From: a virus
Length of the DNA: 20,330 nt
IMG/VR virus record: IMGVR_UViG_3300042868_005476
Span: 1-20,330 of that record
Reading direction: 5' to 3' (one strand)
Below the pieces are notes generated by a model that was given only the letters and a program-made list of their open reading frames with translations, was not told the origin of the DNA and made no database searches. Of this stretch, positions 1 to 16,589 are shown piece after piece; the stretch's first letter is position 1; each line of letters opens with the position of its first letter. Both the position numbers and the translations under genes were made by a program.

Positions 1-948
1 TCATATTTCAAGCCTTTCAATTATGCATGGGCGTATGATGCTTGGCTAAAACATGAACAATCTCATTGGCTTCATACTGAAGTGCCAATGTTGGAGGACG
101 TAAAGGATTGGAAAAAAAGATTGACTCCAGAAGAGCAACAATTCCTAACTCACATTTTCAGATTCTTCACGCAAGGAGATATTGACGTTGCTGGTGGTTA
201 TGTTAGAAATTATTTGCCGTATTTTCCTCAACCTGAAATTCGTATGATGTTGATGGGTTTCGCCGCAAGAGAGGCGTTACACGTTGCTGCTTATTCTCAC
301 TTAATTGAAACTTTGGGTCTTCCAGAAACAACATATAATGAATTCTTAGAATATGCGGAGATGAGGGAGAAGCATGACTATCTAATGGATATTTCTGCTA
401 AGAATACAACAAAAGAAAATACTGCAACACATATTGCTGTGTTCTCGGCATTCACCGAAGGTATGCAGTTATTCTCATCATTCATTATGCTCTTGAACTT
501 TCCTAGAAATGGAAAGATGCGTGGAATGGGACAGATCGTTACGTGGTCGATTGTTGATGAAACTCAACATTGTGAATCGATGATTAAGTTGTTCCGCGCA
601 TACATCGAAGAGAATCGTGAAATTTGGACTGATGAACTTAAAGGCAAGATATATACAATTGCTGAGAGAATGGTCCAACTAGAAGATCAATTTATTGACT
701 TAGCTTTTAATTTAGGTGAAATGGAAAATTTGACGGCGGCCGATGTTAAGCAATATATTAGATACATCACTGATCGTAGACTTATTTCGTTAGGACTAAA
801 AGGTATCTTCAAGGTTAAGAGAAATCCTCTACCTTGGGTGGAAGAGATGATTAATGCTCCAACACACACAAACTTTTTCGAAAACCGAGCAACCGATTAT
901 GCTAAAGGTGCCCTATCGGGAGATTGGTCAGACGTTTGGGCAAACTAA
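1..948 (+). CDS. nrdB: Ribonucleoside-diphosphate reductase class Ia beta subunit NrdB (5' partial)
   Basis: The reading frame is open from base 1, so the N terminus lies outside the window; 315 residues are visible. NrdB carries the diiron centre and stable tyrosyl radical that the alpha subunit NrdA uses to reduce ribonucleotides, supplying dNTPs in the cytoplasm. Counting from base 1, the metal-ligand pattern is intact: Asp60 or Asp62 in GDIDVAGGYV, Glu91 and His94 in EALHVAAY, Glu153 in FTEGMQ, Glu187 and His190 in DETQH. Tyr98 lies seven residues after Glu91, the spacing of the E. coli radical tyrosine Tyr122 after Glu115. The HWLHTEVPM stretch near residue 22 is typical of phage and bacterial class Ia enzymes. 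nrdA is probably just upstream. All key residues are present, so the protein should be active. Confidence 0.96.
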   Translation, partial: SYFKPFNYAWAYDAWLKHEQSHWLHTEVPMLEDVKDWKKRLTPEEQQFLTHIFRFFTQGDIDVAGGYVRNYLPYFPQPEIRMMLMGFAAREALHVAAYSHLIETLGLPETTYNEFLEYAEMREKHDYLMDISAKNTTKENTATHIAVFSAFTEGMQLFSSFIMLLNFPRNGKMRGMGQIVTWSIVDETQHCESMIKLFRAYIEENREIWTDELKGKIYTIAERMVQLEDQFIDLAFNLGEMENLTAADVKQYIRYITDRRLISLGLKGIFKVKRNPLPWVEEMINAPTHTNFFENRATDYAKGALSGDWSDVWAN

Positions 949-3271: not shown

Positions 3272-4117
3272 ATGATTCTAGTTGATCTAAACCAAGTTAT
3301 TCTTTCTGGCCTGATGGCGCAGATTGCAAATCAAAAAAGTTTGAAAATCGAAGAAGATTTGGTTCGACACTTAGTTCTTAATATTCTTCGTGGCCACGTT
3401 AAGCAATTCAAGGCCGAATATGGTGAAGTGATCCTGTGTTGCGATAATCGCAGATATTGGCGTAAGGAAGTATTTCCTTTCTATAAGGCAGGCCGTAAGA
3501 AGACCCGCGAAAAGTCCGATCTGGATTGGCATCTTATCTTCGAAATTCTTGGTAAAATCAAAGAAGAGTTGAAGAACAATTTTCCGTACAAGGTTATCGA
3601 TGTTGATGGCGCAGAGGCTGATGATATTATTGGCACCTTGGCTCCTCGTCATTGTGGAACAGAAAAGGTCCTTATTCTTTCGAGCGATGGTGACTTCTTG
3701 CAATTGCAACAATACAACAATGTAAAGCAATACAATCCAACTCAACGTAAATTTATCAAATCTGTTAATCCTTCACAGGAACTTAAAGAGAAGATTATTC
3801 GCGGTGATAAGGGTGATGGTATTCCAAACATCTTGTCTTCGTCTGATTGTTTCGTTAGAGATATTCGTCAAAAGTCTATCACTAAAGGTAAACTGGAAGA
3901 ATTATTGAATGAAGAACCATCAAAGTATGATTCTGTAGCAAATACTGGTTTCTCAAGAAATCACACCCTAATCGATCTTCGGTGTATTCCAGAAGAGATT
4001 AGAAAATCTATTATAGATACATATGATAGTATCAAACCTTCTCCTCGCTCGAAGTTGATTAACTTCTTCATGGAAAAGAAACTGAAAAATTTAATGGACG
4101 TAATAGAGGAATTTTAA
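3272..4117 (+). CDS. rnh: RNase H / 5'-3' exonuclease of the T4 Rnh (FEN) family
   Basis: A 281-residue member of the FEN/RAD2 nuclease family, close in length to T4 RNase H. It should remove RNA primers and some adjacent DNA 5'-3' during lagging-strand synthesis. The acidic metal-binding clusters are visible in order: Asp5 in ILVDLN, Asp58 with Arg60-Arg61 in CCDNRR, Glu115-x-Asp117-Asp118 in GAEADD, Asp139 and Asp141 in SSDGDFLQLQ, and Asp179/Asp182 in GDKGDGIPN, the start of the helix-hairpin-helix region. AAGGTAAG lies 4-10 nt before the ATG. Its stop shares one base with the next start (TAATG), so the two genes are coupled. Not a T7-type or HI-type RNase H. Confidence 0.95.
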   Translation: MILVDLNQVILSGLMAQIANQKSLKIEEDLVRHLVLNILRGHVKQFKAEYGEVILCCDNRRYWRKEVFPFYKAGRKKTREKSDLDWHLIFEILGKIKEELKNNFPYKVIDVDGAEADDIIGTLAPRHCGTEKVLILSSDGDFLQLQQYNNVKQYNPTQRKFIKSVNPSQELKEKIIRGDKGDGIPNILSSSDCFVRDIRQKSITKGKLEELLNEEPSKYDSVANTGFSRNHTLIDLRCIPEEIRKSIIDTYDSIKPSPRSKLINFFMEKKLKNLMDVIEEF

Positions 4118-4542
4118 TGAGAAAAAATGTGTATGAAATTTTTGATGAGTTCGTTGCCGCACCCACCAAAAAAGAAAAAGTAGATGTTATGGCCAAATAT
4201 TGGTCACCAACATTAAAAGATATTTTGCAATGTGCATATCATCCAGATATTAAGTGGAAAATTCATAAGTTGCCAGATAGTTACAAGAAATCTGATACTC
4301 TTCCTGGCGTTTCTTATAGTTCTCTTTCTACAGAAATGCGTAGATTGTATATGTTCCAAGAAGGACATCCTACGGCAGAGAAATTGACGCCGAAGAAGCA
4401 AGATGAATTGCTTTCAAGTATGTTGGATTCTCTAGAAGTTCGTGAAGCCGAAATTGTTATGGGAATTTTTAAGAAAGATTTAGGTGTTAAGGGGTTGAAC
4501 TATAAGTTCATTCGTGATAACATTCCAGGTGTCTTACCCTGA
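4117..4542 (+). CDS. DUF6433-like phage protein
   Basis: A 141-residue protein that fits, from memory, the DUF6433 family of T4-like phages: an N-terminal helix (YEIFDEFVAAPTKKEKVDVM), a central ILQCAYHPDIKWKIHKLPDSY block, a region ending LLDSLEVREAEIVMGIFKKDL, and a C terminus ending FIRDNIPGVLP, the last motif being characteristic. Function is unknown. It begins on the last base of rnh, with GAGGAA about 8 nt upstream, and is the final gene of that operon: its stop codon lies in the loop of a terminator hairpin. T4 has the helicase loader gp59 near rnh, but this protein does not look like gp59. Confidence 0.72.
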   Translation: MRKNVYEIFDEFVAAPTKKEKVDVMAKYWSPTLKDILQCAYHPDIKWKIHKLPDSYKKSDTLPGVSYSSLSTEMRRLYMFQEGHPTAEKLTPKKQDELLSSMLDSLEVREAEIVMGIFKKDLGVKGLNYKFIRDNIPGVLP

Positions 4543-4571
4543 ATAGCCAATCAAAAGGTAAGACTTTTTTT
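4531..4571 (+). terminator. Rho-independent terminator after the rnh operon
   Basis: Perfect 8-bp stem GTCTTACC (4531-4538) with GGTAAGAC (4557-4564), an 18-nt loop and then seven T (4565-4571). The left arm is inside the last codons of the DUF6433-like gene and the stop codon TGA (4540-4542) lies in the loop, so ribosomes finishing translation would compete with hairpin formation. Confidence 0.8.
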
Positions 4572-4595
4572 AAGTAAATATCGGAGTAACAGTAA

Positions 4596-4784
4596 GTGGG
4601 AAAATTTGTTAGTAAATTCCGCAAAGATCGGGATTATTCAGATGAATACGGTGCAAAGAAAAGCAATAACAATCCTAATGAACGCAAAAAAGAGCATTCA
4701 GAACTTAGGAAAATGAAGATGCAGCGCAGGCAAGACGATTCTTTTTCTGATGAAGATTACTATGTGACCCCAAGATACAAGTAA
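4596..4784 (+). CDS. Small basic, hydrophilic phage protein
   Basis: A 62-residue, highly charged protein, rich in Lys, Arg, Asp, Glu, Asn and Ser, with almost no hydrophobic core (KSNNNPNERKKEHSELRKMK, then an acidic stretch SFSDEDYY). It is probably disordered or folds on a partner or nucleic acid. The start is GTG at 4596, 9 nt after GGAG (4583-4586). It is the first gene after the terminator at 4531-4571, so it needs a promoter in the short gap or read-through. Similar short basic proteins occur in T4-like phages, but no function is known. Confidence 0.65.
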   Translation: MGKFVSKFRKDRDYSDEYGAKKSNNNPNERKKEHSELRKMKMQRRQDDSFSDEDYYVTPRYK

Positions 4785-5463: not shown

Positions 5464-5491
5464 TTGACATTCCTAACGTCTCCGTTATAAT
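5464..5491 (+). promoter_or_regulatory. Sigma70-type promoter before the CobT-like gene
   Basis: Consensus -35 TTGACA (5464-5469), 16-bp spacer and consensus -10 TATAAT (5486-5491). The expected start near 5498 gives a leader of about 20 nt to the ATG at 5518. It is preceded by a 7-bp A/T-rich hairpin (TTGTTGT/ACAACAA, 5439-5458) without a T tract on this strand. Confidence 0.85.
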
Positions 5492-5517: not shown

Positions 5518-7722
5518 ATGCTCATCGAATCCAAATCAAATCTTGCTCGTCTGATGGCTACCGAAAATCTGGTGGTCGAACAAAAGAACGTTTCTACTGC
5601 TTCCTTCGACATTAAGAATCGTGTACTCACGGTTCCCATCTTGAGCGGCAAGCTTTCTCCCGAATTGTATGATCTTTTTCTTGGTCATGAAGTCGGACAC
5701 GCTCTGGAAACTCCAGAAGCAGGCTGGCATACCTCAATCACTGATCTGAAAGTTAATCGGTCAATTCTGAATGTGTGTGAGGATGTTCGTATCGAAAAGA
5801 AAATCAAGCGCCGTTATCCTGGTCTTAAGGTTTCCTTTCTTAAGGGTTATAACGAACTGATGAAGATGGATTTCTTCGGTGTCAAAGATATGAATCTTGC
5901 TAAGATGAATTATATTGACCGACTGAATATCCACACCAAGTGTGGCGCTCGCGTGAGTCTTGATTTCCATGGTTTCGAAGAAGAACTCCTGCAAGAAGTG
6001 GAATCTGCCGAGACCTTCGAAGAAACCGTCGAAGTCGCAAAGAAGATTCAAGCCTACATGAAAGAGGAACAGGAAAAGAAAAAGAACAGCTCGGCCGATA
6101 CATCAGAAATTGATGAGGGTGAAGATTCCGGTGAGGCCAAGTCCTTTGTCACTATGCCAGGTGATGGTGACGATTCAAATGATGATCCTGATGAGTCGGC
6201 CGATTCCGGCGATGCTGCTCCGGTAGAAGAGTCTACGGAAGACTCGGATGAGGACGGCGAGGCGCCAGGAACTTCTGGAGAAGGTTCTTACGAAGATGGC
6301 GTTATGGAGTCAAAGACAGATAATTTCTTCCGCGAAAAGGAAGAAGAACTCTATGAGAATACGAAGAATGTCGAATATGTGTATAGCAATATTCCCGATT
6401 TAAATCTGGAAAACATTATTGTCCCATACGCTCGTATTATGAAGGATATTCAAGAAGAGAATATGCTGTATCCGGACTTCTATAAGCCAGATGTACTGAA
6501 AGCAAATTTCAATAAGTTTCGCATTGAATCCAATAAGGTTGTTTCCTATCTTTGCAAAGAATTTGAACTGCGTAAGAATGCAGACCAAATGTCACGCGCA
6601 AAAGTATCAAAGACCGGTGAATTGAATATGAATAAGATTCATGAATACAAAATCACTGACGATATCTTTGCTCGTATGACTACTGTACCAAATGGTAAGT
6701 CGCACGGTCTTGTTATGTTCATCGACTGGTCCGGTTCAATGATTGACCATATTCATTCGACGGTAAAGCAATTGCTGAACCTTACTATGTTCTGCAAAAA
6801 AGTTAATATTCCTTTTGAGGTGTATGGCTTCACAACTTTTTCACCTTTCTCCGATCCGGCCGACTATTCGTATCGGCATTACTCACAACCGAAATATCAG
6901 AAGCCTGTTATCGGTGATCTGGCTGTTTCACAATTCTCGTTGTTGAATCTTCTTTCAAGCAAAATGTCAACAACTGAATATTCTAAAATGTGTTCTATTT
7001 TGTTGGACTATGGTCGACCTGAGCAACAATCATCTAAGCATTATACAAACATTTGTATTCCTGAAGTATACCTCCTTTCTGGTACACCTTTGAATGAAGC
7101 CATCATTGCTGCATTTAAAATTGTTCCAAAGTTCAAGGCAGATAACAAACTGCAAGTCGTGAATACTGTGTTCCTGACTGATGGCGAAGGTTCTTCTCTT
7201 CCTGGTCGAATCTCGAATATCGATGAAAAAACTGGACGGCATGTTATCGGTGGATCCATTTACGCCAATAGCCGTCAGAAGTCGATTCTTCGTGATCCTA
7301 TCACCAAGGCTACTGTTGAAATTGCCAGTCGCCGTGGTGCCTACGGTCATTCACCACAATCAATCAGCGAATCTATTGCCTTGCTGAATCTTTTCAAGCA
7401 ACGTGTTGATTCTAATCTTATTGGATTCTTTATTGCCAGCTCCCGCAACATCAAGTCTTCGTTGCAACAGTATTGTTCCAATATGGAAGAGTCTTATAGT
7501 CTGTCGGAACAATTTAAAAAGAAGGGCTTTTGCGTACTGAATGGTTCGGGTTATGATGACTATTACTTCATTCGTTCATCCGAACTTGATATTGATGAGG
7601 ACGCAGAGTTTGAAGTGAAGTCAAACACTACCCGCGGACTTGTCTCTGCATTCTCTAAATACAACGGAAACAAGATTTCGAACCGGATCGTACTTAACCG
7701 ATTTATTACCCTGATTGCATAA
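5518..7722 (+). CDS. CobT-like protein: HExxH metallopeptidase-like N terminus, acidic linker, von Willebrand A domain
   Basis: A 734-residue protein. Near residue 57 it has LGHEVGHALETP, a HExxH zinc motif (His57, Glu58, His61). Residues about 185-265 form a strongly acidic, low-complexity Asp/Glu/Ser linker. The C-terminal von Willebrand A domain has a complete MIDAS: Asp403-x-Ser405-x-Ser407 in FIDWSGSM, Thr523 in SGTPLNEA, and Asp555 in LTDGEG. The order resembles CobT, the VWA subunit that works with the AAA+ protein CobS in cobalt insertion, and MoxR-partner VWA proteins. Phage copies are often labelled CobT or peptidase, but cobalamin synthesis is unproven and no CobS is in the window. 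A TTG at 5503 is in frame, but promoter geometry favours ATG 5518. The gene is GC-richer than its upstream neighbours. Confidence 0.88.
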   Translation: MLIESKSNLARLMATENLVVEQKNVSTASFDIKNRVLTVPILSGKLSPELYDLFLGHEVGHALETPEAGWHTSITDLKVNRSILNVCEDVRIEKKIKRRYPGLKVSFLKGYNELMKMDFFGVKDMNLAKMNYIDRLNIHTKCGARVSLDFHGFEEELLQEVESAETFEETVEVAKKIQAYMKEEQEKKKNSSADTSEIDEGEDSGEAKSFVTMPGDGDDSNDDPDESADSGDAAPVEESTEDSDEDGEAPGTSGEGSYEDGVMESKTDNFFREKEEELYENTKNVEYVYSNIPDLNLENIIVPYARIMKDIQEENMLYPDFYKPDVLKANFNKFRIESNKVVSYLCKEFELRKNADQMSRAKVSKTGELNMNKIHEYKITDDIFARMTTVPNGKSHGLVMFIDWSGSMIDHIHSTVKQLLNLTMFCKKVNIPFEVYGFTTFSPFSDPADYSYRHYSQPKYQKPVIGDLAVSQFSLLNLLSSKMSTTEYSKMCSILLDYGRPEQQSSKHYTNICIPEVYLLSGTPLNEAIIAAFKIVPKFKADNKLQVVNTVFLTDGEGSSLPGRISNIDEKTGRHVIGGSIYANSRQKSILRDPITKATVEIASRRGAYGHSPQSISESIALLNLFKQRVDSNLIGFFIASSRNIKSSLQQYCSNMEESYSLSEQFKKKGFCVLNGSGYDDYYFIRSSELDIDEDAEFEVKSNTTRGLVSAFSKYNGNKISNRIVLNRFITLIA

Positions 7723-7723
7723 A

Positions 7724-8263
7724 ATGGTACTGATACAAGAAGACACACTATCAGAAGAACTTATAACCGAAATTCTAAATTGGAACGAAGAGACCAAGGC
7801 AGGAGATGTGTGGGCTTCTAATCATGCCAAGTGGACAGAAGTGCTCAAGTATGCAACAACCGGAACAATTCTTTCCAGAGTTTTTCCTGATGCTTTGAAA
7901 GTGAAGCTTTATCGAGAATTGCAATCTAGATGTAAACTCAACTATCTTCCATATTCTTCTTCTGCTCTTTTCTATGTCGGGTATCCCAACTCTTGTGTAA
8001 ACTGGCATAACGATTATTCCGATTATGATGCAATGTCTATCTACTTGAATCGAACGTATGATCCGAATTGGGGTGGTTGGTTCTCTTGGACCTCCGATTT
8101 CAACGGAATAGAAGGTGACATAAAGCCGCAACACGGTAAGTTTGTTGTTCCCGGCTTTAATCGATCTGTTCTTTCCACCGAAAAAGAGTGGCATTGCACG
8201 ACACCGCTAAGTCCTTTTGCACAACCTAGAATCTCCATTCAATTGTTCTTCTCCAAAAAATGA
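7724..8263 (+). CDS. 2-oxoglutarate/Fe(II)-dependent oxygenase
   Basis: A 179-residue protein with the facial triad of 2OG-Fe(II) dioxygenases: His95-x-Asp97 in NWHNDYSDYDAMS, distal His157 in EKEWHC, and Arg169 in QPRISIQLFF, the usual 2-oxoglutarate-binding Arg about 12 residues after the His. The WGGWFSW strand following YLN is typical of prolyl-hydroxylase-like members. Such enzymes hydroxylate proteins, nucleic acids or small molecules; the substrate here cannot be told. It begins one base after the stop of the CobT-like gene, so it is coupled to it, and its end overlaps the next gene by ATGA. No strong ribosome-binding site is seen. Confidence 0.87.
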   Translation: MVLIQEDTLSEELITEILNWNEETKAGDVWASNHAKWTEVLKYATTGTILSRVFPDALKVKLYRELQSRCKLNYLPYSSSALFYVGYPNSCVNWHNDYSDYDAMSIYLNRTYDPNWGGWFSWTSDFNGIEGDIKPQHGKFVVPGFNRSVLSTEKEWHCTTPLSPFAQPRISIQLFFSKK

Positions 8264-8640
8264 AAACTAAAAGCAAACCATTTAGCGCACAACTGGTCAA
8301 GTATCGAGAAGCCACGATGGAGTCTCCGGTATGGTTCTGGGTGAATCCGACGACCGGTGCGACACTATCTCCACACTTCGAAAATCAAAAAGATGCCGAA
8401 CAATGGTTCGATGACGTTGTAAAAATCCACACAGAAACCTATAACTTCTTGGACCGAATCAAGAACGGAACTATCTATAACCTGAAGTGTCGAGTTAAAT
8501 CTCCTCCATCCAAAACAAGATATCCGTTCTCTTTTAAGTATTATAATTCTGTCGTATCTGTGAGTATGCTGGGCGTCGATATCCGTGATGCAAGAAGCCG
8601 GATCGAACCATTTTTTGAAATCATTGAATGGCTTGAGTGA
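8260..8640 (+). CDS. Hypothetical phage protein
   Basis: A 126-residue protein with no family that I recognise. It has Trp- and Phe-rich stretches (SPVWFWVNPTTGATLSPHF), a helix around NQKDAEQWFDDVVKIHTETYN, a basic strand region (LKCRVKSPPSKTRYPFSF) and a C-terminal helix (PFFEIIEWLE). It overlaps the oxygenase gene by four bases (ATGA) and the next start overlaps its stop (TGATG), so it is made from the CobT-like operon by translational coupling. Confidence 0.78.
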   Translation: MKTKSKPFSAQLVKYREATMESPVWFWVNPTTGATLSPHFENQKDAEQWFDDVVKIHTETYNFLDRIKNGTIYNLKCRVKSPPSKTRYPFSFKYYNSVVSVSMLGVDIRDARSRIEPFFEIIEWLE

Positions 8641-8816
8641 TGTTTGAAAACAATTCGTTCTTTGCCATAGACATACAATCTATTAACCTTATCTCTTTTG
8701 TCGTAGGCGCATTCTTTGCCTCGATGTTGTATAGAGTGAAAGCCATGATTTTCGTCACTCTATATTTTATTTGCCTTTCCATCTATTTTGGTGTAAAATT
8801 ATATCCTATCAACTGA
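8640..8816 (+). CDS. Small two-helix membrane protein
   Basis: A 58-residue reading frame with two hydrophobic segments, about residues 16-32 (NLISFVVGAFFASML) and 37-52 (MIFVTLYFICLSIYF), joined by a short basic turn (YRVKA). This predicts a hairpin inner-membrane protein with the positive loop on the cytoplasmic side. Its ATG overlaps the preceding stop (TGATG), which supports translation as the last gene of the CobT-like operon. A weak promoter for the next gene lies in its 3' third. No function is recognised; small phage membrane proteins can act in superinfection exclusion or lysis control, but nothing here shows that. Confidence 0.65.
   Translation: MFENNSFFAIDIQSINLISFVVGAFFASMLYRVKAMIFVTLYFICLSIYFGVKLYPIN
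8771..8799 (+). promoter_or_regulatory. Possible promoter within the membrane-protein gene
   Basis: TTGCCT (8771-8776), 17-bp spacer and TAAAAT (8794-8799), followed by ATTATATCC. It resembles a degenerate member of the TTGCCA promoter family of the right half of the window and could drive the gene at 8837. Confidence 0.4.
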
Positions 8817-9975: not shown

Positions 9976-10062
9976 AGCGACATCCATGCACCATGACAAC
10001 ATAGCCATCCAGGTGCGTCATCCACTCGGTGCTCCCGATGTGAAAATAGTTGCCAAAAATGG

Positions 10063-10090
10063 TTGCCATTCCTGATGGCTGTGCTATAGT
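10063..10090 (+). promoter_or_regulatory. TTGCCA-family promoter 1
   Basis: TTGCCA (10063-10068), 16-bp spacer ending TGC, TATAGT (10085-10090), then CCATCCATCG at the expected start. A second TTGCCA is present 13 bp further upstream. Leader of about 29 nt with AAAGGA to the ATG at 10126. Confidence 0.85.
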
Positions 10091-10125
10091 CCATCCATCG
10101 TATCAAACAAAGCAAAGGAAACACC

Positions 10126-10398
10126 ATGCCAAAAGTCACCATCTCCGCGGCCGACACCATCTCCGATTTGATCGACGCCCTCCGTGAGCGCCAAGTGGAA
10201 GACGGCTCCACCTACGCCGACGCCTCTGCCTTCACGCTGGGCTACATCGGCTCCGCTCTCGGTGGTTTCATCGACGGACTGACACCTAAGGCCAAGGCAA
10301 CCATTCTGGCTGACCTTGAATCCCGCATCCGCACGGTCAACGATATCCGTGCCAAGCGCCGCGCTGAGGCCATCATGGCTCGGTCGGCAACCATCTGA
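10126..10398 (+). CDS. Hypothetical early-type phage protein
   Basis: A 90-residue protein, GC-rich in codon use, first gene of the small-gene module and directly under promoter 1. It is mostly helical: ISDLIDALRERQ, then a Gly/Ala-rich hydrophobic centre (FTLGYIGSALGGFIDGL) and a long basic helix (AKATILADLESRIRTVNDIR). The hydrophobic centre could be a buried helix or a weak membrane segment. AAAGGA lies about 10 nt before the ATG. No family is recognised. Confidence 0.72.
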   Translation: MPKVTISAADTISDLIDALRERQVEDGSTYADASAFTLGYIGSALGGFIDGLTPKAKATILADLESRIRTVNDIRAKRRAEAIMARSATI

Positions 10399-10431
10399 TT
10401 TTTTAACCTGTAAACTGTAAAAGGAAACACA

Positions 10432-10620
10432 ATGAACCAAACCATCACCACCGCTCCTGTTCTGGAATCTGCTCTGGCTGCCTTCGAAGCCGCCAAGGCT
10501 GCCGTAGTCCAAGCCCGCGCCGAGGCTAAGGCAGCCGAAGCCCGTAAGGTGGAAGGCACCAAGGCAGTCCGTGCTCTAATGAAGGAGTCCGGCGTCACCC
10601 TGGAAATGCTGGCTGCCTGA
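10432..10620 (+). CDS. Small Ala-rich coiled-coil protein
   Basis: A 62-residue protein, about a third Ala, with an uninterrupted charged helix (FEAAKAAVVQARAEAKAAEA) suited to a coiled coil, and a C-terminal MKESGVTLEMLAA segment resembling the end of short DNA-binding or H-NS-like proteins. That resemblance is weak. AAAAGGAAACACA precedes the ATG, the leader type used throughout the module. It follows its neighbour after 33 bp and probably shares promoter 1. Confidence 0.65.
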   Translation: MNQTITTAPVLESALAAFEAAKAAVVQARAEAKAAEARKVEGTKAVRALMKESGVTLEMLAA

Positions 10621-10631
10621 TAGGAAAAGAC

Positions 10632-10659
10632 TTGCCATCCGTTCTGGATGTGCTATAGT
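10632..10659 (+). promoter_or_regulatory. TTGCCA-family promoter 2
   Basis: TTGCCA (10632-10637), 16-bp spacer ending TGC, TATAGT (10654-10659), CCATCCATCGAATCAA at the start. Leader of about 30 nt with AAAGGAAACACC to the ATG at 10696. Confidence 0.88.
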
Positions 10660-10695
10660 CCATCCATCGAATCAACGAACAGCAAAGGAAACACC

Positions 10696-10989
10696 ATGAG
10701 CAAAATCACCAAAGCCACCTTCAAGTCCTTCCTCCGTAAGAATGAGTCCAAGGTTCTGGTCAAGGTCGGTTCGTCCTTCGATCCGATGGTCGATTGTGTC
10801 ATGCCAGTGGCCGACAAATTCGAGCCTGCACGGGAAGCCAACTATCCGTGTGAAAATAACCTGGGTCTGGCTGGCGTGTGGTTGGTTAGCGGATCAGGCA
10901 ACTACTTCACGGAATACGACCGCGAAGGTTTGAAGGGCATTCGGGTGTCGAATTGCTGTGGTGCCTTTGTGGTCGCCGTGCCTGCCTAA
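10696..10989 (+). CDS. Conserved phage hypothetical protein
   Basis: A 97-residue protein with an MSKITKATFKSFLRKNE N terminus, a middle with DCVMPVADKF and a C terminus with GIRVSNCCGAFVVAVPA. The paired Cys (Cys90/Cys91 region) and the overall layout match a hypothetical family in diverse tailed phages, from memory. The ATG at 10696 follows AAAGGAAACACC; earlier in-frame codons lie inside promoter 2 and are excluded. Function unknown. It is followed within 11 bp by the next gene, with AAGGAG overlapping its stop. Confidence 0.78.
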   Translation: MSKITKATFKSFLRKNESKVLVKVGSSFDPMVDCVMPVADKFEPAREANYPCENNLGLAGVWLVSGSGNYFTEYDREGLKGIRVSNCCGAFVVAVPA

Positions 10990-10999
10990 GGAGTACAGA

Positions 11000-11308
11000 A
11001 TGACCACACGGAATGTCCATGTTTTTCTAGCCCCGGACCATCTGTTCGGTTCCCTTGAATTCTATGGCTCCGACGCGCTGGAACAGGTCCGAAGCCGGCG
11101 GCCACACTATCGCCTGGCCGGTATGATTCCAACCGACCTGGTTGGCGAGGCTGCTGCGGAGATGGTGTTCGGGTTGTCCAACGATCCCTCCAAGGAGACC
11201 CTGCAGGAATCCATGGGTTGGACTGGTCGATCCTTGTCCGTTGGTGACATTGTAGTGGTCGACGGCGTGGACTTTGTGTGCCTGCCAGTTGGTTGGAAAA
11301 TTCTCTGA
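11000..11308 (+). CDS. Phage protein with YodL-like C-terminal motif
   Basis: A 102-residue protein. The C terminus GRSLSVGDIVVVDGVDFVCL followed by PVGWKIL resembles the 'S-SVGD-V' and 'VGW/VGF' pattern of YodL-like domains seen in phage and plasmid proteins; the N-terminal part (HVFLAPDHLFGSLEFYGSDA) may be a small alpha/beta domain. AAGGAG (10988-10993) is 6 nt before the ATG, which fixes the start. Cotranscribed with the upstream gene from promoter 2. Function is unknown; the family link is a motif-level judgement. Confidence 0.72.
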   Translation: MTTRNVHVFLAPDHLFGSLEFYGSDALEQVRSRRPHYRLAGMIPTDLVGEAAAEMVFGLSNDPSKETLQESMGWTGRSLSVGDIVVVDGVDFVCLPVGWKIL

Positions 11309-11317
11309 GGAAAGTGG

Positions 11318-11345
11318 TTGCCATCCTCACCGGTTGTGCTATAGT
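11318..11345 (+). promoter_or_regulatory. TTGCCA-family promoter 3 (leaderless arrangement)
   Basis: TTGCCA (11318-11323), 16-bp spacer ending TGC, TATAGT (11340-11345), then CCATCC and the ATG at 11352, where transcription should begin. Confidence 0.87.
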
Positions 11346-11351
11346 CCATCC

Positions 11352-11498
11352 ATGATGAAAAAACAAATCGCTAACACCACTCCCCTCCTGGTCCAAGACC
11401 GGAAGACCGGCCAATGGTACAATCCGCAGGAGGCATGGCTCAAGGTCATGGAGTCCAAGGAAGTCCGTGAGGTCATGGTCCGGTTGAAGAACCGATAA
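11352..11498 (+). CDS. Small hypothetical protein, likely from a leaderless mRNA
   Basis: A 48-residue basic protein: a strand-like LLVQDRKTGQWYNPQEAW segment followed by a Lys/Arg-rich helix (VMESKEVREVMVRLKNR). Tandem ATGATG at 11352/11355 begins 7 nt after the -10 box of promoter 3, so the transcript would have no leader and no ribosome-binding site. Codon use is GC-rich and coding-like to the stop. Function unknown. Confidence 0.65.
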   Translation: MMKKQIANTTPLLVQDRKTGQWYNPQEAWLKVMESKEVREVMVRLKNR

Positions 11499-11530
11499 TC
11501 CAGCCAGCCGGTCAACTATTCCACGGATGG

Positions 11531-11558
11531 TTGACAGATCCTTCGGATGCCGTATAAT
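11531..11558 (+). promoter_or_regulatory. TTGACA/TATAAT promoter 4 with GGTCAA box (leaderless arrangement)
   Basis: TTGACA (11531-11536), 16-bp spacer, TATAAT (11553-11558). GGTCAA at 11510-11515 is exactly 15 bp upstream of -35. The first ATG is at 11566, 8 nt after the -10 box. This copy has the consensus -35 and should be among the strongest. Confidence 0.88.
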
Positions 11559-11565
11559 GGACAAC

Positions 11566-11664
11566 ATGATGAAACGAAACGAGAAAATCAAGGAAGCGGT
11601 GCAGATGGTTGTCTGCTTGGTGTTAGTCGCCGGCATCGGTGTCCTCTTGGCCTGGAGGGGGTGA
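11566..11664 (+). CDS. Tiny single-pass membrane protein
   Basis: A 32-residue reading frame starting MMKRNEKIKEA and followed by one hydrophobic helix, about residues 13-29 (VQMVVCLVLVAGIGVLLAW), ending RG. Positive charges precede the helix, predicting N-in topology. It starts at the expected 5' end of the promoter 4 transcript and its stop is followed after one base by the next ATG, with GGAGGGGG in its last codons serving that gene. The combination of strong promoter, membrane helix and coupling supports a real gene despite its size. Confidence 0.6.
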   Translation: MMKRNEKIKEAVQMVVCLVLVAGIGVLLAWRG

Positions 11665-11665
11665 T

Positions 11666-11824
11666 ATGACCAGAATCCGTTTTGACCGTCGCCTAGGCCT
11701 GGAGGTGTTCCGTTACACCTCACTCCACAACATCGAGGTCGGTCCACTATGGTGCGTGGCTTGGGCCACCGACTCGGACCTGGAGACCTTCCGACTGAAC
11801 GATTGGTCCTTTGTTCCTGCGTGA
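11666..11824 (+). CDS. Small hypothetical protein
   Basis: A 52-residue protein, Trp- and Leu-rich (RLGLEVFRYTSLHNIEVGPLW, then WATDSDLETFRLNDWSF). GGAGGGGG lies about 7 nt before the ATG. It follows the membrane peptide by one base and ends just before promoter 5, so the two genes form one unit. No family recognised. Confidence 0.62.
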   Translation: MTRIRFDRRLGLEVFRYTSLHNIEVGPLWCVAWATDSDLETFRLNDWSFVPA

Positions 11825-11835
11825 GAATGGAATGG

Positions 11836-11863
11836 TTGCCATTCCGTCTGGAGTGTGTATAAT
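11836..11863 (+). promoter_or_regulatory. TTGCCA-family promoter 5, no clear gene downstream
   Basis: TTGCCA (11836-11841), 16-bp spacer, TATAAT (11858-11863), then GGACTCC. It is followed by the structured segment at 11885-11970, not by a convincing gene. Confidence 0.85.
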
Positions 11864-11869
11864 GGACTC

Positions 11870-11972
11870 CAGATCGAAGCGAAAGGCAGGGTGGACGTGG
11901 AGGCTGGGCGTCATCCTGCCATGACCTTCGCGTGTTTCAAATGCGCGAAGGTTCGCCATTTTCGAATGGCAG
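11870..11972 (+). ncRNA. Candidate structured small RNA from promoter 5
   Basis: Between promoters 5 and 6 three hairpins stack in series: GGCAGG (11885-11890) with CCTGCC (11915-11920); ACCTTCGCG (11924-11932) with CGCGAAGGT (11944-11952), a perfect 9-bp stem; and GCCATT (11955-11960) with AATGGC (11965-11970) around a TTCG tetraloop. No T tract follows, so the transcript may read into the next unit or be processed. The frame open through this stretch also runs through promoter 6 and does not look coding. Confidence 0.45.
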
Positions 11973-11976
11973 ATGG

Positions 11977-12004
11977 TTGCCATTCCATCCGGTTGTGCTA
12001 TAGT
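11977..12004 (+). promoter_or_regulatory. TTGCCA-family promoter 6 (leaderless arrangement)
   Basis: TTGCCA (11977-11982), 16-bp spacer ending TGC, TATAGT (11999-12004), then CCATTCC and ATG at 12012. Confidence 0.87.
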
Positions 12005-12011
12005 CCATTCC

Positions 12012-12392
12012 ATGGTGAACAAGGAGATCGAATTGAGCAAGTACCAATCCATGGACCTCTGCGAGCTGGGCGGCTATGCATCGGACTACCACAAGGATGT
12101 CCATGGCTTCCGTCCTCGCGGGGATGGTCTATACGCCAACCGCGAGGCGTTGATTGATATCATTGAAGGCCTGGACGCTTACATGGTTTCCCGCCGTTCC
12201 ACCTTCGCTGGACGTGAGTCCATGCGGGCTGACGGCTGGCACGTATTGGAGACCGAGCCAGAATTGATCCAGCGATCCATCTGGATTGCAGAGGAGCGGG
12301 ATCGGGACAACCGTGAGGCCAACGGTGACTGGTGGAAAGAGGACCACGCCGAGGCGCCACGCCTTCGCCGCCAGTACGGAATGGCGGAATAA
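12012..12392 (+). CDS. Conserved small phage protein (HGFRPRG motif)
   Basis: A 126-residue protein. The N-terminal SDYHKDVHGFRPRGDG resembles the 'Y-Y-HGFRPR' motif of short phage hypotheticals, and helices follow (REALIDIIEGLDAYMV). The C terminus is charged and Trp-containing (NGDWWKEDHAEAPRLRRQYG). The ATG at 12012 lies 8 nt after the -10 box, giving a leaderless mRNA; alternatively translation begins at the TTG at 12033, which has AAGGAG 6 nt before it. Codon use is GC-rich. Function unknown. Confidence 0.72.
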   Translation: MVNKEIELSKYQSMDLCELGGYASDYHKDVHGFRPRGDGLYANREALIDIIEGLDAYMVSRRSTFAGRESMRADGWHVLETEPELIQRSIWIAEERDRDNREANGDWWKEDHAEAPRLRRQYGMAE

Positions 12393-12395
12393 TGG

Positions 12396-12423
12396 TTGCC
12401 ATTCCTACTGGAACCTGTATACT
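12396..12423 (+). promoter_or_regulatory. TTGCCA-family promoter 7
   Basis: TTGCCA (12396-12401), 16-bp spacer ending CTG, TATACT (12418-12423), then a start region with CCATCGAATCAA. Leader of about 25 nt to the ATG at 12455. Confidence 0.83.
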
Positions 12424-12454
12424 TCATTCCATCGAATCAACAAAGGCACTAACC

Positions 12455-12640
12455 ATGACCATTGACCAACGCATCCAAGCCCTCCAAGAGGCCGAGCAGG
12501 CCTTCCGCAACGCCTGGTCCCTCATGGACGCAGCCATCGGCTATGATGCCTCCTCGGAGATCGGCGAGACCCGCACCGTGCAGGACATCATCCAGATCCT
12601 GGCATCGCCTGAGTTTATTGGCGTGGAGGAATCTGTATGA
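12455..12640 (+). CDS. Small hypothetical helical protein
   Basis: A 61-residue acidic protein, mostly helical (QRIQALQEAEQAFRNAWSLM, then TRTVQDIIQILASPEF). AAAGG lies about 11 nt before the ATG. Its stop overlaps the next start (ATGA), so the two are coupled. GC-rich codon use contrasts with the AT-rich gene that follows. No family recognised. Confidence 0.68.
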   Translation: MTIDQRIQALQEAEQAFRNAWSLMDAAIGYDASSEIGETRTVQDIIQILASPEFIGVEESV

Positions 12641-12810
12641 CCACCGTCGATTATCTGCTCTCCAAAGGTTACTCCGAAGAGGAGATTCAAACCATTATGG
12701 AGGAGATTGCTCTGTATAATGAAACTCCTTATCTGTATGATACTGAGCCACCTATGATGCGCGAGATTAACCGTTTCTTCGCTCCCGAGTTTGAAGATAT
12801 TCCATTCTGA
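12637..12810 (+). CDS. Small acidic hypothetical protein
   Basis: A 57-residue acidic protein starting MTTVDYLLSKGYSEEEIQTI, a pattern of two short helices like a UBA- or HTH-type fold, then a Tyr/Pro-rich stretch and a C-terminal REINRFFAPEFEDIPF. It overlaps the upstream gene by ATGA, with GGAGGA about 9 nt before the start. Codon use is markedly more AT-rich than the upstream gene. Confidence 0.65.
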   Translation: MTTVDYLLSKGYSEEEIQTIMEEIALYNETPYLYDTEPPMMREINRFFAPEFEDIPF

Positions 12811-12824
12811 TTGGAGATAAGATT

Positions 12825-13013
12825 ATGTCAATCATTTCAAATATGCCAATCGCCGAGTTGGATAATGTTAAGAGTATGCTTCGCGCCAGTGGCCAGAAGT
12901 TTCGTATTAGGTATCGCGGCCCTCGATTCAATATCGCAACGGATAATCGGCCGCGTGATTTGAAAAGGTCAACCTGCCTCAAGGTTAATGCCACCACATT
13001 TTCTGTATATTGA
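12825..13013 (+). CDS. Conserved small basic phage protein (RYRGPR motif)
   Basis: A 62-residue basic protein with MLRASGQKFRIRYRGPRFN, then RSTCLKVNATTFSVY at the C terminus. This layout matches short phage hypotheticals with RYRGPR and T-LK-DAT-FAVY motifs, recalled from memory. It is probably a small beta-rich domain that may bind nucleic acid; that is inference. GGAG lies 8 nt before the ATG. Confidence 0.72.
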   Translation: MSIISNMPIAELDNVKSMLRASGQKFRIRYRGPRFNIATDNRPRDLKRSTCLKVNATTFSVY

Positions 13014-13024
13014 ATAGGAAAAAT

Positions 13025-13237
13025 ATGCTAATTCCAAACGTATCGAAGTCCGAGTCCGCCATGCTTGACCAACTATGGGCCATCCAATCAGAGGACCAAC
13101 TGGAAGCCTTCCTGGAGTCTCGGACACCAAAGGGCAGGGCACTAGCCGAACGCATGGTCGCCACGCTGATCCTGGAGTCGGAATACGATAGGACCGACCA
13201 GATCCTGGAAAACACGCTCCCCTTGCCACTTTACTAG
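13025..13237 (+). CDS. Small hypothetical helical protein
   Basis: A 70-residue acidic helical protein (ESAMLDQLWAIQSEDQLEAF, then GRALAERMVATLILESEYDR). AGGA lies 6 nt before the ATG. It is GC-rich, unlike its AT-rich upstream neighbour 11 bp away, with which it probably shares promoter 7. It is the last gene before a 530-base gene-free stretch. Confidence 0.68.
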   Translation: MLIPNVSKSESAMLDQLWAIQSEDQLEAFLESRTPKGRALAERMVATLILESEYDRTDQILENTLPLPLY

Positions 13238-13369
13238 GCAAGGACCAGGCTACCCCCTTACCGCACACCAAAACGCGAAAAAACGAAAAAAGGCGCCGGT
13301 AAGCCATTGCCACCGTTGGCGTATTTTGAACGATTCCAGGAAAACACGAGTTTTTGAGTGTTCTACCCC

Positions 13370-13397
13370 TTGCCAAACCACTCGGAACCTGTATAAT
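13370..13397 (+). promoter_or_regulatory. TTGCCA-family promoter 8, no clear gene downstream
   Basis: TTGCCA (13370-13375), 16-bp spacer, TATAAT (13392-13397), then GGACTCCATTGA. About 200 bases to the next promoter without a supported gene. Confidence 0.85.
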
Positions 13398-13403
13398 GGA
13401 CTC

Positions 13404-13560
13404 CATTGATTCGAAGGGCAACTCCCGGGATGGACAGGGAGGCTATTTGATTGGTTCCGCCTCCGTCCAGGAATCATCGGAACCTCCAGCAAGGTCAACC
13501 ATCGCACGGAACACCGCAGGCGTTCCTGGACGGTCCTGGAAGGTTCGGAACGGATGAAGA
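13404..13560 (+). ncRNA. Candidate non-coding transcript from promoter 8
   Basis: The 5' part can fold as TGGAC (13431-13435) plus GGAGGC (13438-13443) with GCCTCC (13459-13464) plus GTCCA (13465-13469): 11 pairs with a 2-nt bulge and 15-nt loop. Downstream lie tandem decamers TCCTGGACGG/TCCTGGAAGG. A 26-base segment at 13519-13544 recurs with one mismatch at 16913-16938 behind promoter 13. The 3' end is unknown. Confidence 0.38.
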
Positions 13561-13598
13561 CATTCCTGGATGGAGAGGAAACCAATCATGGAAAGTGG

Positions 13599-13626
13599 TT
13601 GCCAAACCGTCGGAGACCTGTATAAT
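13599..13626 (+). promoter_or_regulatory. TTGCCA-family promoter 9, no clear gene downstream
   Basis: TTGCCA (13599-13604), 16-bp spacer, TATAAT (13621-13626), then GGACTCCATCGAA. Only 85 bases separate it from promoter 10; a 37-codon frame from 13650 runs through promoter 10 and has no proper ribosome-binding site. Confidence 0.83.
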
Positions 13627-13711
13627 GGACTCCATCGAACAGAGGGGGATGGACGCTGGACGTGGGCACCACTTTAATGTCACACCAAACCGGTCAACTA
13701 TCCGAAAACAC

Positions 13712-13739
13712 TTGCCATCCTCACCAGTACCTGTACAGT
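13712..13739 (+). promoter_or_regulatory. TTGCCA-family promoter 10 with GGTCAA box
   Basis: TTGCCA (13712-13717), 16-bp spacer, TACAGT (13734-13739), CCATCCATCGGATCAA at the start. GGTCAA at 13692-13697 is 14 bp upstream of -35. Drives the GP88-like gene. Confidence 0.82.
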
Positions 13740-13771
13740 CCATCCATCGGATCAACGAATAGATTATATCC

Positions 13772-14530
13772 ATGAAATTACTTTCCACTGGTAACCCCAA
13801 GATTCTCAAAGGTATCTCTGAGGGTTATAATACCTATATTCTACACCTTGCACCAGCGAGTTTGTCTGGTTATAATACCTGCGCCAAGGCTACGGCTGGT
13901 TGCAAGGCTGCCTGCCTTAACACCGCTGGCCGTGGTGGTATGTTCAAAAAGGGCGAGAATACCAACGTGATTCAAAAGGCCCGTATTCGCAAAACCATTA
14001 TGTTTTTCGAAAGTTATGATTCTCGCGCCGATTTTATGCGGTTACTGGTCAAAGATATTGAATTGGCCATTAAACAATCGGCTAAAAAAGGTCTTACACC
14101 AGTTATTCGCCTTAATGGTACTTCGGATATTCCATTCGAAAAGTATCCAGCCATTCGGGATGGTATTGAATATGCTAATATCTTCTTTGCATTTTCTGAA
14201 ATCCAATTTTACGATTATACCAAGATTCTTGGTCGTAAGATTAACCATATTGCCAATTACCACCTGACCTTTTCAGCCGCCGATGGTAATGATTCGGATG
14301 TTAATAAAGCGATCAACCTTGGATATAATATCGCCGTGGTATTTGGCATTAAGAAAACACTGCCAATGCCGGCCGAATATATGGATTTGACAGTATTCAA
14401 TGGCGACGATTCTGATTTGCGATTCTTGGATCCAAAACGTGTTATCGTCGGTCTGTATGCTAAAGGTAAAGCCAAGAAAGATACTTCGGGATTCGTTAAG
14501 TATCCTCAGATAATGCTGGCGGTTGCTTGA
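13772..14530 (+). CDS. GP88-family phage protein
   Basis: A 252-residue protein with the hallmarks of the phage GP88 family: LSTGNPKILKG at the N terminus, HLAPASLSGYNTC with three clustered cysteines (Cys37, Cys44, Cys48), LNTAGRGGMFKKGENTN, VIRLNGTSDIPFE, QFYDYTKI, NYHLTFS and the C-terminal RFLDPKRVIVGLYAKGKAKK. The family is widespread in phages but uncharacterised; the Cys cluster could bind metal. Length is normal for the family and all blocks are present, so it appears intact. There is no clear ribosome-binding site before the ATG (leader of about 26 nt). The gene is AT-richer than the preceding small genes. Confidence 0.85.
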   Translation: MKLLSTGNPKILKGISEGYNTYILHLAPASLSGYNTCAKATAGCKAACLNTAGRGGMFKKGENTNVIQKARIRKTIMFFESYDSRADFMRLLVKDIELAIKQSAKKGLTPVIRLNGTSDIPFEKYPAIRDGIEYANIFFAFSEIQFYDYTKILGRKINHIANYHLTFSAADGNDSDVNKAINLGYNIAVVFGIKKTLPMPAEYMDLTVFNGDDSDLRFLDPKRVIVGLYAKGKAKKDTSGFVKYPQIMLAVA

Positions 14531-14599
14531 TATTATTATCGGCAGCAGCAACTAAGACTCCAACACATTCCAATGCCGCGAATGGTTTACCCATACATT

Positions 14600-14638
14600 A
14601 TCTCTCCCGGTGGTATCCATTCTCTCCAGGTGGTATCC
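14600..14638. repeat. Imperfect tandem repeat
   Basis: Two adjacent units of about 20 bases, TCTCTCCCGGTGGTATCC and TCTCTCCAGGTGGTATCC, separated by AT, with a partial third copy TCTCTCCCGGTGG at 14698-14710. Confidence 0.75.
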
Positions 14639-14721
14639 GCGACAACCACCGCGACATTACTCCTGGACGGCGTGCTAAATAGCGTTTTCTCGGTATTTCT
14701 CTCCCGGTGGCTCTCCTATTC

Positions 14722-14738
14722 TTGACCAATCCGGTCAA
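14722..14738. promoter_or_regulatory. Perfect dyad TTGACC-N5-GGTCAA (best operator copy)
   Basis: TTGACC (14722-14727) and GGTCAA (14733-14738) with AATCC between. The right half ends 15 bp before the -35 box of promoter 11. Related dyads at the same distance precede promoters 12, 15 and 16. Confidence 0.6.
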
Positions 14739-14753
14739 GATTGGATAAAACAC

Positions 14754-14781
14754 TTGCCATCCTCTCTGGAAACTGTATACT
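14754..14781 (+). promoter_or_regulatory. TTGCCA-family promoter 11
   Basis: TTGCCA (14754-14759), 16-bp spacer ending CTG, TATACT (14776-14781), then a start region with CCATCGG. Drives the unit from 14819. Confidence 0.84.
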
Positions 14782-14818
14782 TCTCTCCATCGGTTCTTAC
14801 TACTTAATAAGGTTTATT

Positions 14819-14995: not shown

Positions 14996-15008
14996 GAGGT
15001 AAATTATT

Positions 15009-15191: not shown

Positions 15192-15204
15192 GAGGTAAAT
15201 TATT

Positions 15205-15366: not shown

Positions 15367-15404
15367 TGTGCTAATATGATAGTGGTTACTAACAAGGAAC
15401 AATA

Positions 15405-15656: not shown

Positions 15657-15669
15657 CCGGATTGGTCAA
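15654..15669. promoter_or_regulatory. Dyad TGACC-N5-GGTCAA upstream of promoter 12
   Basis: TGACC (15654-15658), GGATT, GGTCA(A) (15664-15669); 16 bp to the -35 box. The left half overlaps the stop of the preceding gene. Confidence 0.5.
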
Positions 15670-15685
15670 CAATTCCTCATGATGG

Positions 15686-15752: not shown

Positions 15753-16574
15753 ATGCCAAGAGGCGTTCCAAAAGCAGGTTTTCGTATGACTAAAGCGGTG
15801 CTGGCTAATATGACCAACACCATCGAGGCGAAGCCCTCACGGTTCACAATCAACGAGCGGTTCGGTTTTGTCTCGGACATGGTGAGTATGCTGGCCAAAG
15901 GCGACCAGGCTTCGGTTGTGGTTTCTGGACCTGGCGGTCTCGGCAAGTCCCACACCGTCACGGCTGCGCTGGTTCGTTCCGGTCTGGTCGACGCTACACT
16001 CGCCGAGGACTTCGCCATCGGCGCGTCCATTAACTCACGGAAATCGTTCCGTGTAATCAAGGGTTATTCTACACCAAAAGGTCTCTATCGTACCCTTTTC
16101 GAGAATCGGGAAGGCGTGGTTGTTTTTGACGATTGCGATTCTGTACTGAAAGATCCAGTATCTGTCAATCTATTAAAGGCTGCACTGGATTCGTATGACC
16201 GCCGTATTATCTCATGGCGTGCCGATATTCGTGATGAAGAATTGCCTACTACCTTTGAATTCAAAGGCCGTGTAGTATTCATTTCGAATCTTCCTTCGAC
16301 TGCTATGGACCAGGCTATTATTACTCGGTCGCTGGCTGTTGACCTTACCATGACTATCTCGCAAAAGGTCGATAGGATGCGGTATCTACTCTCCCAATCT
16401 GATTTCATGCCTGAATTCGAAAAGTCTTTCAAATCTGATGCAATGGATTTGATTGATACTCTCCAAGATGATGTAAAAGAACTCTCCTTGCGAACCCTTA
16501 TTCAGGTCGTCAAGATTCGTAAATCTGCCGGTGCAAACTGGAAGAATCTGGCAGAATACGCCATCACCAACTAA
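15753..16574 (+). CDS. Phage AAA+ ATPase
   Basis: A 273-residue ATPase. Walker A is Gly59-Pro-Gly-Gly-Leu-Gly-Lys-Ser66, Walker B is VVVFDDCDS (122-130), sensor 1 is Asn179 in VVFISN, and Arg192 in IITRSLAVD fits an arginine-finger position. The IKGYSTPKGLYRTLFENREG segment and LDSYDRRIISW are shared with a family of phage ATPases of unknown role, from memory. GGAG 8 nt upstream fixes the start. It is the largest gene of the module. It is not CobS-like enough to be called the partner of the CobT-like protein. Codon use is GC-rich up to about base 16040 and AT-richer after, hinting at a recombination junction inside the gene. Confidence 0.87.
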   Translation: MPRGVPKAGFRMTKAVLANMTNTIEAKPSRFTINERFGFVSDMVSMLAKGDQASVVVSGPGGLGKSHTVTAALVRSGLVDATLAEDFAIGASINSRKSFRVIKGYSTPKGLYRTLFENREGVVVFDDCDSVLKDPVSVNLLKAALDSYDRRIISWRADIRDEELPTTFEFKGRVVFISNLPSTAMDQAIITRSLAVDLTMTISQKVDRMRYLLSQSDFMPEFEKSFKSDAMDLIDTLQDDVKELSLRTLIQVVKIRKSAGANWKNLAEYAITN

Positions 16575-16589
16575 TAAGGAATTCTTATC

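Follow-up and report, generated by a model that had tools for sequence, protein, structure and literature searches.

A VWA protein with a metallopeptidase-like head in a T4-like phage fragment, and its probable unlinked CobS-type AAA+ partner

Results

A HExxH and VWA protein behind its own promoter

We analysed a 20,330-base fragment of a T4-like bacterial virus (IMG/VR record IMGVR_UViG_3300042868_005476), referred to below as the window, and in particular its gene for a 734-residue protein in which a HExxH-bearing head is joined by an acidic linker to a von Willebrand factor A (VWA) domain with a metal ion-dependent adhesion site (MIDAS). An interpretation made earlier from the nucleotides alone, which we call the sequence-only reading, had noted a complete MIDAS, a HExxH motif, a strongly acidic linker and a consensus promoter of the gene's own. 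Each of these was borne out: the motifs recur in 40 of 40 relatives, the linker holds 28 acidic residues and one basic residue among 72, and the promoter agrees with the consensus at 12 of 12 positions. The relevant features, all on the plus strand, are listed here.

5464..5491, sigma-70-type promoter of the VWA gene, TTGACA-16-TATAAT, 12/12
5518..7722 (stop included; codons to 7719), 734-residue protein with gluzincin-like head, acidic linker and MIDAS-VWA domain; PHROG 459, cyanophage T4-GC146 'peptidase'
5518..6096, N-terminal zincin-like domain, residues 1-193; mean predicted local distance difference test (pLDDT) of the model 89.4; top Foldseek and VIA matches are HExxH metalloproteins
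5686..5700, HEVGH (HExxH), residues 57-61; 40/40 relatives
5770..5790, NVCEDVR (NxxEDxR), residues 85-91, with the candidate third zinc ligand E88/D89; 40/40 relatives; in helix 81-99
6097..6312, acidic disordered linker, residues 194-265; 28 D/E and 1 K/R of 72; pLDDT < 50 at 194-261
6376..7719, C-terminal half with MIDAS VWA domain, residues 287-734; structurally closest to NorD and Rea1/midasin VWA domains
6724..6738, MIDAS DWSGS, residues 403-407, together with T523 (7084-7086) and D555 (7180-7182); 40/40 relatives

The protein aligns over its full length with the PHROG 459 'peptidase' profile (E = 2.5e-199, 665.6 bits; residues 4-734 against positions 5-736 of 736), and an alternative TTG start at 5503 would lengthen it by 5 residues. 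A tblastn search finds it in 463 of the 50,697 phage records, with at least 80% of the query covered in 451, so it is no orphan and belongs to a well populated family; it is a known family member in an uncommon position. Among 40 aligned relatives the HExxH motif, the NxxEDxR motif and the five MIDAS residues (D403, S405, S407, T523 and D555) are invariant, and in a smaller alignment HExxH and the MIDAS residues are likewise kept in 9 of 9. The sequence-only reading had named a lack of HExxH or MIDAS conservation, combined with the absence of any AAA+ partner from the genome, as grounds for giving it up; the motifs prove to be kept, and close relatives do encode a CobS (below). With H57, E58, H61 and E88/D89 unchanged in all 40, the sequence has the gluzincin pattern of a HExxH followed by a Glu in the next helix. 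A search of the PDB sequences with the family alignment gave no match under E 0.26, and the protein has no match in PADLOC, which covers defence systems.

Predicted structure of the head and of the VWA half

The model of the full protein has a mean pLDDT of 75.7, and that of the head (residues 1-198) reaches 89.4, with helices at 48-64 and 81-99 that place the HExxH and NxxEDxR segments as they are placed in gluzincins. Foldseek ranks selecase, ArdC, abylysin and Mycobacterium regulators first for the head and IrrE lower, with a best E of only 0.068, and VIA returns ArdC (Z 5.2), IrrE (4.8), selecase (4.8) and BlaR1 (4.7), all of them weak scores; HExxH zincins dominate the list. The head shares with the mini-gluzincins (selecase, abylysin, jannalysin), ArdC and IrrE, which hold its first fold ranks, a HExxH helix followed by a Glu helix, but the scores are weak (Z of 5.2 or less) and the context is different.

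For the C-terminal half (residues 287-734) the best VIA match is NorD in its complex with NorQ (9qh6_G; Z 15.5, root-mean-square deviation 4.6, 246 residues aligned), followed by a second NorD/NorQ entry (9qhd_G, Z 15.1) and by the MIDAS domains of Rea1/MDN1 (14.6 for 6qt8, and 14.1), while Rpn10 and integrin domains rank lower, at Z 12.8 or less. VWA domains known to act on AAA+ rings therefore lead the list. The cellular CobT structures 9uka, 21vt and 21vu are present in the PDB sequence set and are not among the structure-search matches listed. Taken with the motifs, these comparisons support the view of the protein as a VWA of the type that partners an AAA+ ATPase, carrying a metallopeptidase-like head.

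A CobS-type gene follows the VWA gene in most relatives and lies apart from it in one clade

The family is known from T4-like cyanophages and pelagiphages, where cobS comes right after it: in the phages HTVC008M, OC (of Ochrobactrum), S-PM2 and Syn1, cobS is the gene directly after the VWA gene, the order in S-PM2 being gp46, peptidase, cobS, gp45. The sequence-only reading had missed that CobS is the usual next gene in a large and already described phage family. It had stated that no AAA+ partner is adjacent in the window, which is correct, with the caveats that an AAA protein of the T4 nrdC.10 type is encoded at 15753-16574 and that the record is a fragment.

The IMG/VR loci fall into two groups, group A (clade A), made up of 34 loci and the window, and group B, the cyanophage-like group, of 56 loci. 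All 34 group-A loci have rnh and DUF6433 genes upstream of the VWA gene and none has CobS within the locus, where 14 of the 34 extend at least 3 kb downstream of the VWA gene. In group B, 52 of 56 loci contain CobS, which in 51 cases shares the strand of the VWA gene and lies 63-2594 nt downstream of it; the exception (L085) has it upstream on the other strand, and the four loci without it stop 114 to 1898 nt past the VWA gene. Seventeen loci come from bacterial assemblies or metagenome-assembled genomes (MAGs), with CobS in 12, four others ending within 667 nt of the VWA gene, and one (L142) running for 6 kb without CobS. The INPHARED tallies by the first word of the organism name are equal for the two genes (Synechococcus 365, Cyanophage 61, Prochlorococcus 24), these being totals by name and not matched record by record.

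A search of whole records with a CobS alignment located a same-strand CobS downstream of the VWA gene in three group-A records, G004 (15.9 kb), G012 (14.7 kb) and G032 (18.3 kb), the distances having been computed by hand from the match ranges. These are the sole group-A records with at least 31 kb of downstream sequence, so that an unlinked CobS, with its Walker A motif present, occurs in three of three; the next longest record (G038, 15.3 kb downstream) has none, and the remaining ones have 12.3 kb or less. The search for a CobS- or MoxR-type ATPase elsewhere in the genome that the sequence-only reading had proposed thus finds none in the 20.3-kb fragment itself and one in every close relative that reaches far enough. 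Since the record is only a fragment, the absence of CobS from it means little, and since it ends 12.6 kb past the VWA gene where relatives have CobS at 14.7-18.3 kb, the simplest reading of these sequences is that CobS lies just beyond the contig end, which we hold to be very probable. Within group B, the VWA genes of L057 and L061 are preceded by rnh, and in L057 CobS follows 152 nt downstream, so the order rnh-VWA-CobS probably preceded the split.

The CobS profile matches midasin, cellular CobS, CbbQ and NorQ in the PDB, and the group-A proteins match AAA_5, AAA_3 and CbbQ_C above the cut-offs. They match TIGR01650 with E = 5.5e-19, but at 68.5 bits this falls far under the cut-off of 558.55, which makes them CobS-like MoxR AAA+ proteins and, by that criterion, no CobS orthologues. 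In PADLOC they have marginal AAA-type matches (best E 0.0011). Membership of a defence system was rejected, given these marginal matches and the lack of any for the VWA protein.

One could also speculate that the nrdC.10-like AAA protein at 15753-16574 is the partner in this phage and that CobS has been lost, as the two genes share a contig here and likewise in L004 and L030. However, the L004 and L030 records hold both this AAA gene and CobS, and the 1232 phage records with an nrdC.10-like protein are mostly headed by phages of Escherichia, Klebsiella and Vibrio, none of which figure in the VWA tally. With its different distribution and its coexistence with CobS in relatives, we rejected this candidate, to which we attach almost no probability.

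Host-type promoters and the question of a late role

To describe the promoter class of the pair, we scored the best match to TTGACA-16..18-TATAAT over the 120 nt that precede each start, with the VWA starts projected from tblastn; the resulting counts come from related sequences and are hence not independent trials. In clade A, 27 of 35 VWA genes (window included) have a sigma-70 site of at least 10/12, against 6.0% in random windows, and the exact T4-type late box NATAAATA is found in 0 of 35. Group B together with four named or isolate loci has such a site in 19 of 58 (background 5.8%) and a late box in 2 of 58, two further loci having been dropped for too little upstream sequence. For CobS the corresponding figures are 27 of 67 (background 5.9%) and 3 of 67, leaving out the loci that failed start-finding, whose number was not recorded. 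The capsid gene gp23 served as yardstick: an exact late box is present in 3 of 7 (G043, G057 and G047; not in G050, S-PM2, HTVC008M or L010), and a sigma-70 site of at least 10 in 0 of 7. In G043, G057 and G047 the VWA genes score 10, 12 and 9 and the CobS genes 12, 12 and 11. These sequence matches suggest that the pair is transcribed from host-type promoters, in contrast to the capsid gene of these genomes. With such promoters on both genes, synthesis of the machine probably falls early or midway in infection.

Two published transcriptomes yielded no data on the timing of the pair, as PMC12753301 names neither cobS nor cobalt, and PMC5082946 has 0 occurrences of cobalt, cobalamin, peptidase or cobs. 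In PMC5349666, a single phage promoter is reported ahead of the peptidase gene of DLP6.

The promoters bear directly on a possible late role, in which CobS and the VWA protein would form a virion assembly chaperone and processing protease, remodelling structural proteins that the zinc head then cleaves. PMC7824862 proposed such a role in virion assembly for the group 2.2 jumbo phages and cites ATV, a virus of archaea, as a precedent, and the cyanophage pair does lie near gp55 and the clamp genes. Yet both genes carry sigma-70-type promoters where gp23 in the same genomes (G043, G047, G057) has the exact late box. That box marks 3 of 7 gp23 genes overall and stands upstream of 0 of 35 clade-A and 2 of 58 other VWA genes. 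Furthermore, the clade-A gene lies in the nrd/rnh region, and a search for gp23 in 11 clade-A records found none. We consider this explanation unlikely.

Evidence against cobalt chelation

PMC8651126 proposes that viral CobST hijacks the host CobN, and the pair would in this case act as a cobaltochelatase that raises cobalamin output. The similarity to CobS behind this proposal is real, albeit far under the cut-off, as described above. The VWA protein fits it poorly: Pfam CobT (PF06213) matches 0 of 9 family members at E of 0.1 or less, and in 15 of 15 loci of cellular CobT, in turn, no HExxH occurs within the first 300 residues. Identity with cellular CobT was therefore rejected, there being no Pfam or NCBIfam support bar one weak TIGR02442 match (0.011, in 1 of 9 members). 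Profile-profile comparison of the family with 12 cellular CobT sequences was marginal (probability 19.5%, E 0.0012), and hhalign of the N-terminal domains scored 21.5, where 30 column shuffles reached 17.9 at best, at an E of only 0.02; from these alignments the N-terminal domains of the two families may be distantly related.

The CobN profile had no match in 14 of 14 phage records, its control matching in 5 of 14 named genomes, and of six assemblies checked one (G059) has CobN. It is absent from the isolate assembly of Nonlabens xiamenensis, where a 188-kb contig (L138, NZ_RMVE01000006.1) reads uvsY-uvsW-gp55-gp47-gp46-VWA-CobS-gp45-gp44; this contig is probably a phage genome that was included in the host assembly, its host link being inferred from co-assembly. 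The clade also encodes a class I nrdB, which is independent of B12. The lack of CobN and of a CobT match, together with the HExxH, makes cobalt chelation unlikely and argues that the VWA protein is not a cobaltochelatase subunit; the CobN-hijacking explanation as such we regard as very improbable for this protein.

Proposed function of the pair

We find it reasonably probable that the protein is the VWA/metallopeptidase subunit of a two-protein 'peptidase + CobS' phage machine acting in early remodelling or proteolysis, its CobS partner encoded some 15-18 kb downstream, as seen in relatives and presumed here. By analogy with NorQ acting on NorD, a CobS hexamer would bind the C-terminal VWA domain and twist or pull it with ATP; the MIDAS would grip a target protein, and the zincin head on its long, flexible acidic linker would cleave or hold the remodelled target, its protease activity being putative. 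The machine would be made early or in mid-infection and would act on a host protein or on a replication or metal protein, and not in late virion assembly alone.

Several points weigh against this proposal. The fold matches of the head, whose zinc-dependent proteolysis is putative, are weak (best Z 5.2, best Foldseek E 0.068). CobS is absent from the window itself, 12.6 kb downstream of the VWA gene included. The promoter sites are consensus matches in related sequences, a strong one is found in only 19 of 58 VWA genes of the cyanophage-like set, with none in S-PM2 and Syn1, and early expression is compatible with an assembly role. An ATP-driven early remodelling or proteolysis machine nevertheless fits best, and a purely late function in virion assembly is less likely.

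A more specific version is that CobS and the VWA-gluzincin constitute an early, phage-encoded ATP-dependent metalloprotease of new architecture, a MoxR-type AAA+ ring with VWA, acidic tether and zincin head, which would remodel or degrade host proteins at takeover. We put this forward tentatively, as a possibility clearly less likely than not; if true, a core gene of cyanophages has been wrongly labelled 'cobalamin'.

The resemblance to NorD also raises the prospect of a NorQD-like chaperone that inserts metal into, or activates, a metalloenzyme of the phage, for instance NrdB or a 2-oxoglutarate (2OG) oxygenase. The closest solved VWA domains are indeed those of NorD in NorQ complexes, described in PMC13036017 as inserting iron into cNOR; the clade-A gene lies about 4-5 kb from nrdB, and one contig (L002) has NifU_N and Fe-S_biosyn genes beside nrdA/nrdB. 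But in the cyanophage regions examined no nrd genes flank the pair, and a metal-insertion role leaves the HExxH head without a task. T4 has nrdB and is not known to carry the pair. We give this role little probability. The sequence-only reading had spoken of a chaperone or metal-handling operon rather than cobalamin synthesis; chaperone or remodelling activity does fit better, whereas the operon as a functional system is not supported.

Relation to known systems

VWA-CobS pairs of this kind are already described in two papers, Liu et al. 2021 (PMC8651126) and Iyer et al. 2021 (PMC7824862). The former describes viral cobST, considers the cyanophage cobT to be mis-annotated as peptidase and proposes the CobN hijack, and the latter describes jumbo-phage MoxR-vWA pairs with an N-terminal metallopeptidase; pelagimyophage cobS and cobT are listed as auxiliary metabolic genes in PMC7029224. 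Compared with cyanophage T4-GC146 (PHROG 459) and CobS T4-GC150, our protein has about 30-37% identity over the full length, the same domain order and the same invariant HExxH, NxxEDxR and MIDAS motifs, but sits behind rnh-DUF6433 in the nrd region, with CobS unlinked (14.7-18.3 kb in relatives) and not the next gene. Viral cobST is this same cyanophage gene pair, yet the peptidase motif conserved in the family is absent from cellular CobT. The group 2.2 jumbo-phage pair, likened here by its published description, shares a vWA fused to an N-terminal metallopeptidase and a MoxR AAA+ partner; its authors propose virion assembly, whereas the promoters here suggest early transcription. With NorQ-NorD and CbbQ-CbbO the common ground is the structural match of the VWA half to NorD and of the CobS profile to NorQ and CbbQ. 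NorD differs in having cNOR as its target and in showing no HExxH zincin head in our analyses. For NorQD, PMC13036017 shows a finger of the VWA domain inside the pore of the AAA+ ring and proposes that twisting drives the insertion of metal.

New here are the clade with split VWA and CobS genes, the invariance of the zinc site, measured on 40 sequences, and the predicted structures, in which the VWA half resembles NorD and the head weakly matches mini-gluzincins; to these come the CobN test and the promoter class of the two genes. We found no statement on the split arrangement or promoter class of the pair in the open-access PMC literature, which does not prove that none exists. In marine T4-like cyanophages, cobS belongs to the core genes and is treated as a B12 auxiliary metabolic gene. 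That it travels with a VWA gene retaining a zinc-peptidase site, in phages without CobN and often with host-type promoters, speaks for annotating the pair anew, as a remodelling or protease machine of the AAA+/VWA kind, and its function becomes testable in culturable phage-host pairs.

Neighbouring genes and other features of the window

The other features of the window are listed below; a search for tRNA genes in the window found none.

82-948, nrdB
3272-4117, T4-type RNase H (rnh)
4117-4542, DUF6433
7724..8263, plus strand, putative 2OG-Fe(II) oxygenase, 179 residues; PF13640 match below cut-off
8260..8640, plus strand, 126-residue protein, without Pfam or PHROG match
8640..8816, plus strand, probable two-helix membrane protein, 58 residues, from translation
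13772-14530, GP88-family protein (PF17338)
15753..16574, plus strand, AAA-like ATPase resembling T4 nrdC.10 (PHROG 1250), an improbable partner
19691-19999, small SWIM zinc-finger protein (PF04434, E 4.3e-5)

The genes downstream of the VWA gene are as tightly coupled as the sequence-only reading had it: the VWA stop ends at 7722 and the next ATG is at 7724, an ATGA overlap spans 8260-8263, and the ATG at 8640 lies on the preceding stop. Its call of a 2OG-Fe(II) oxygenase stands as far as the HxD...H...R motif visible in the sequence goes, the PF13640 match being weak and below the cut-off (E 1.8e-4, 22.8 bits against 27). The translated 58-residue product is hydrophobic and, judged by eye, probably forms a two-helix hairpin, in agreement with the two-helix membrane protein proposed. 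The look at relatives for a conserved neighbourhood, which that reading had asked for, does not find one: among 34 clade-A loci, 14 of them with at least 3 kb downstream of the VWA gene, the oxygenase gene occurs in 3 (L004, L030, L033), relatives of the 126-residue gene in 4 (L001, L004, L029, L030) and a relative of the hairpin in 1 (L054). The oxygenase/hairpin 'operon' is a local arrangement, not a conserved system.

On the same-clade contig L002, the NifU_N (IscU-like) and Fe-S_biosyn (IscA-like) genes occupy 3894-4629, between an nrdA-like gene and nrdB. The GP88-family protein recurs in 6 of 34 clade-A loci, the copy in L030 being on the opposite strand. Finally, a promoter-like repeat, TTGCCATCC ... 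TGTGYTATAGTCCATCCATCGAATC, precedes short open reading frames at 10053-18754 of the window, between the VWA gene and the expected place of CobS. Its copies group into two overlapping families, both with 9 members, in a region with a GC content of 0.41-0.55 against 0.35-0.42 in 1-9 kb, and similar arrays are found in L004 (13.5-19.3 kb) and, with fewer copies, in L030.

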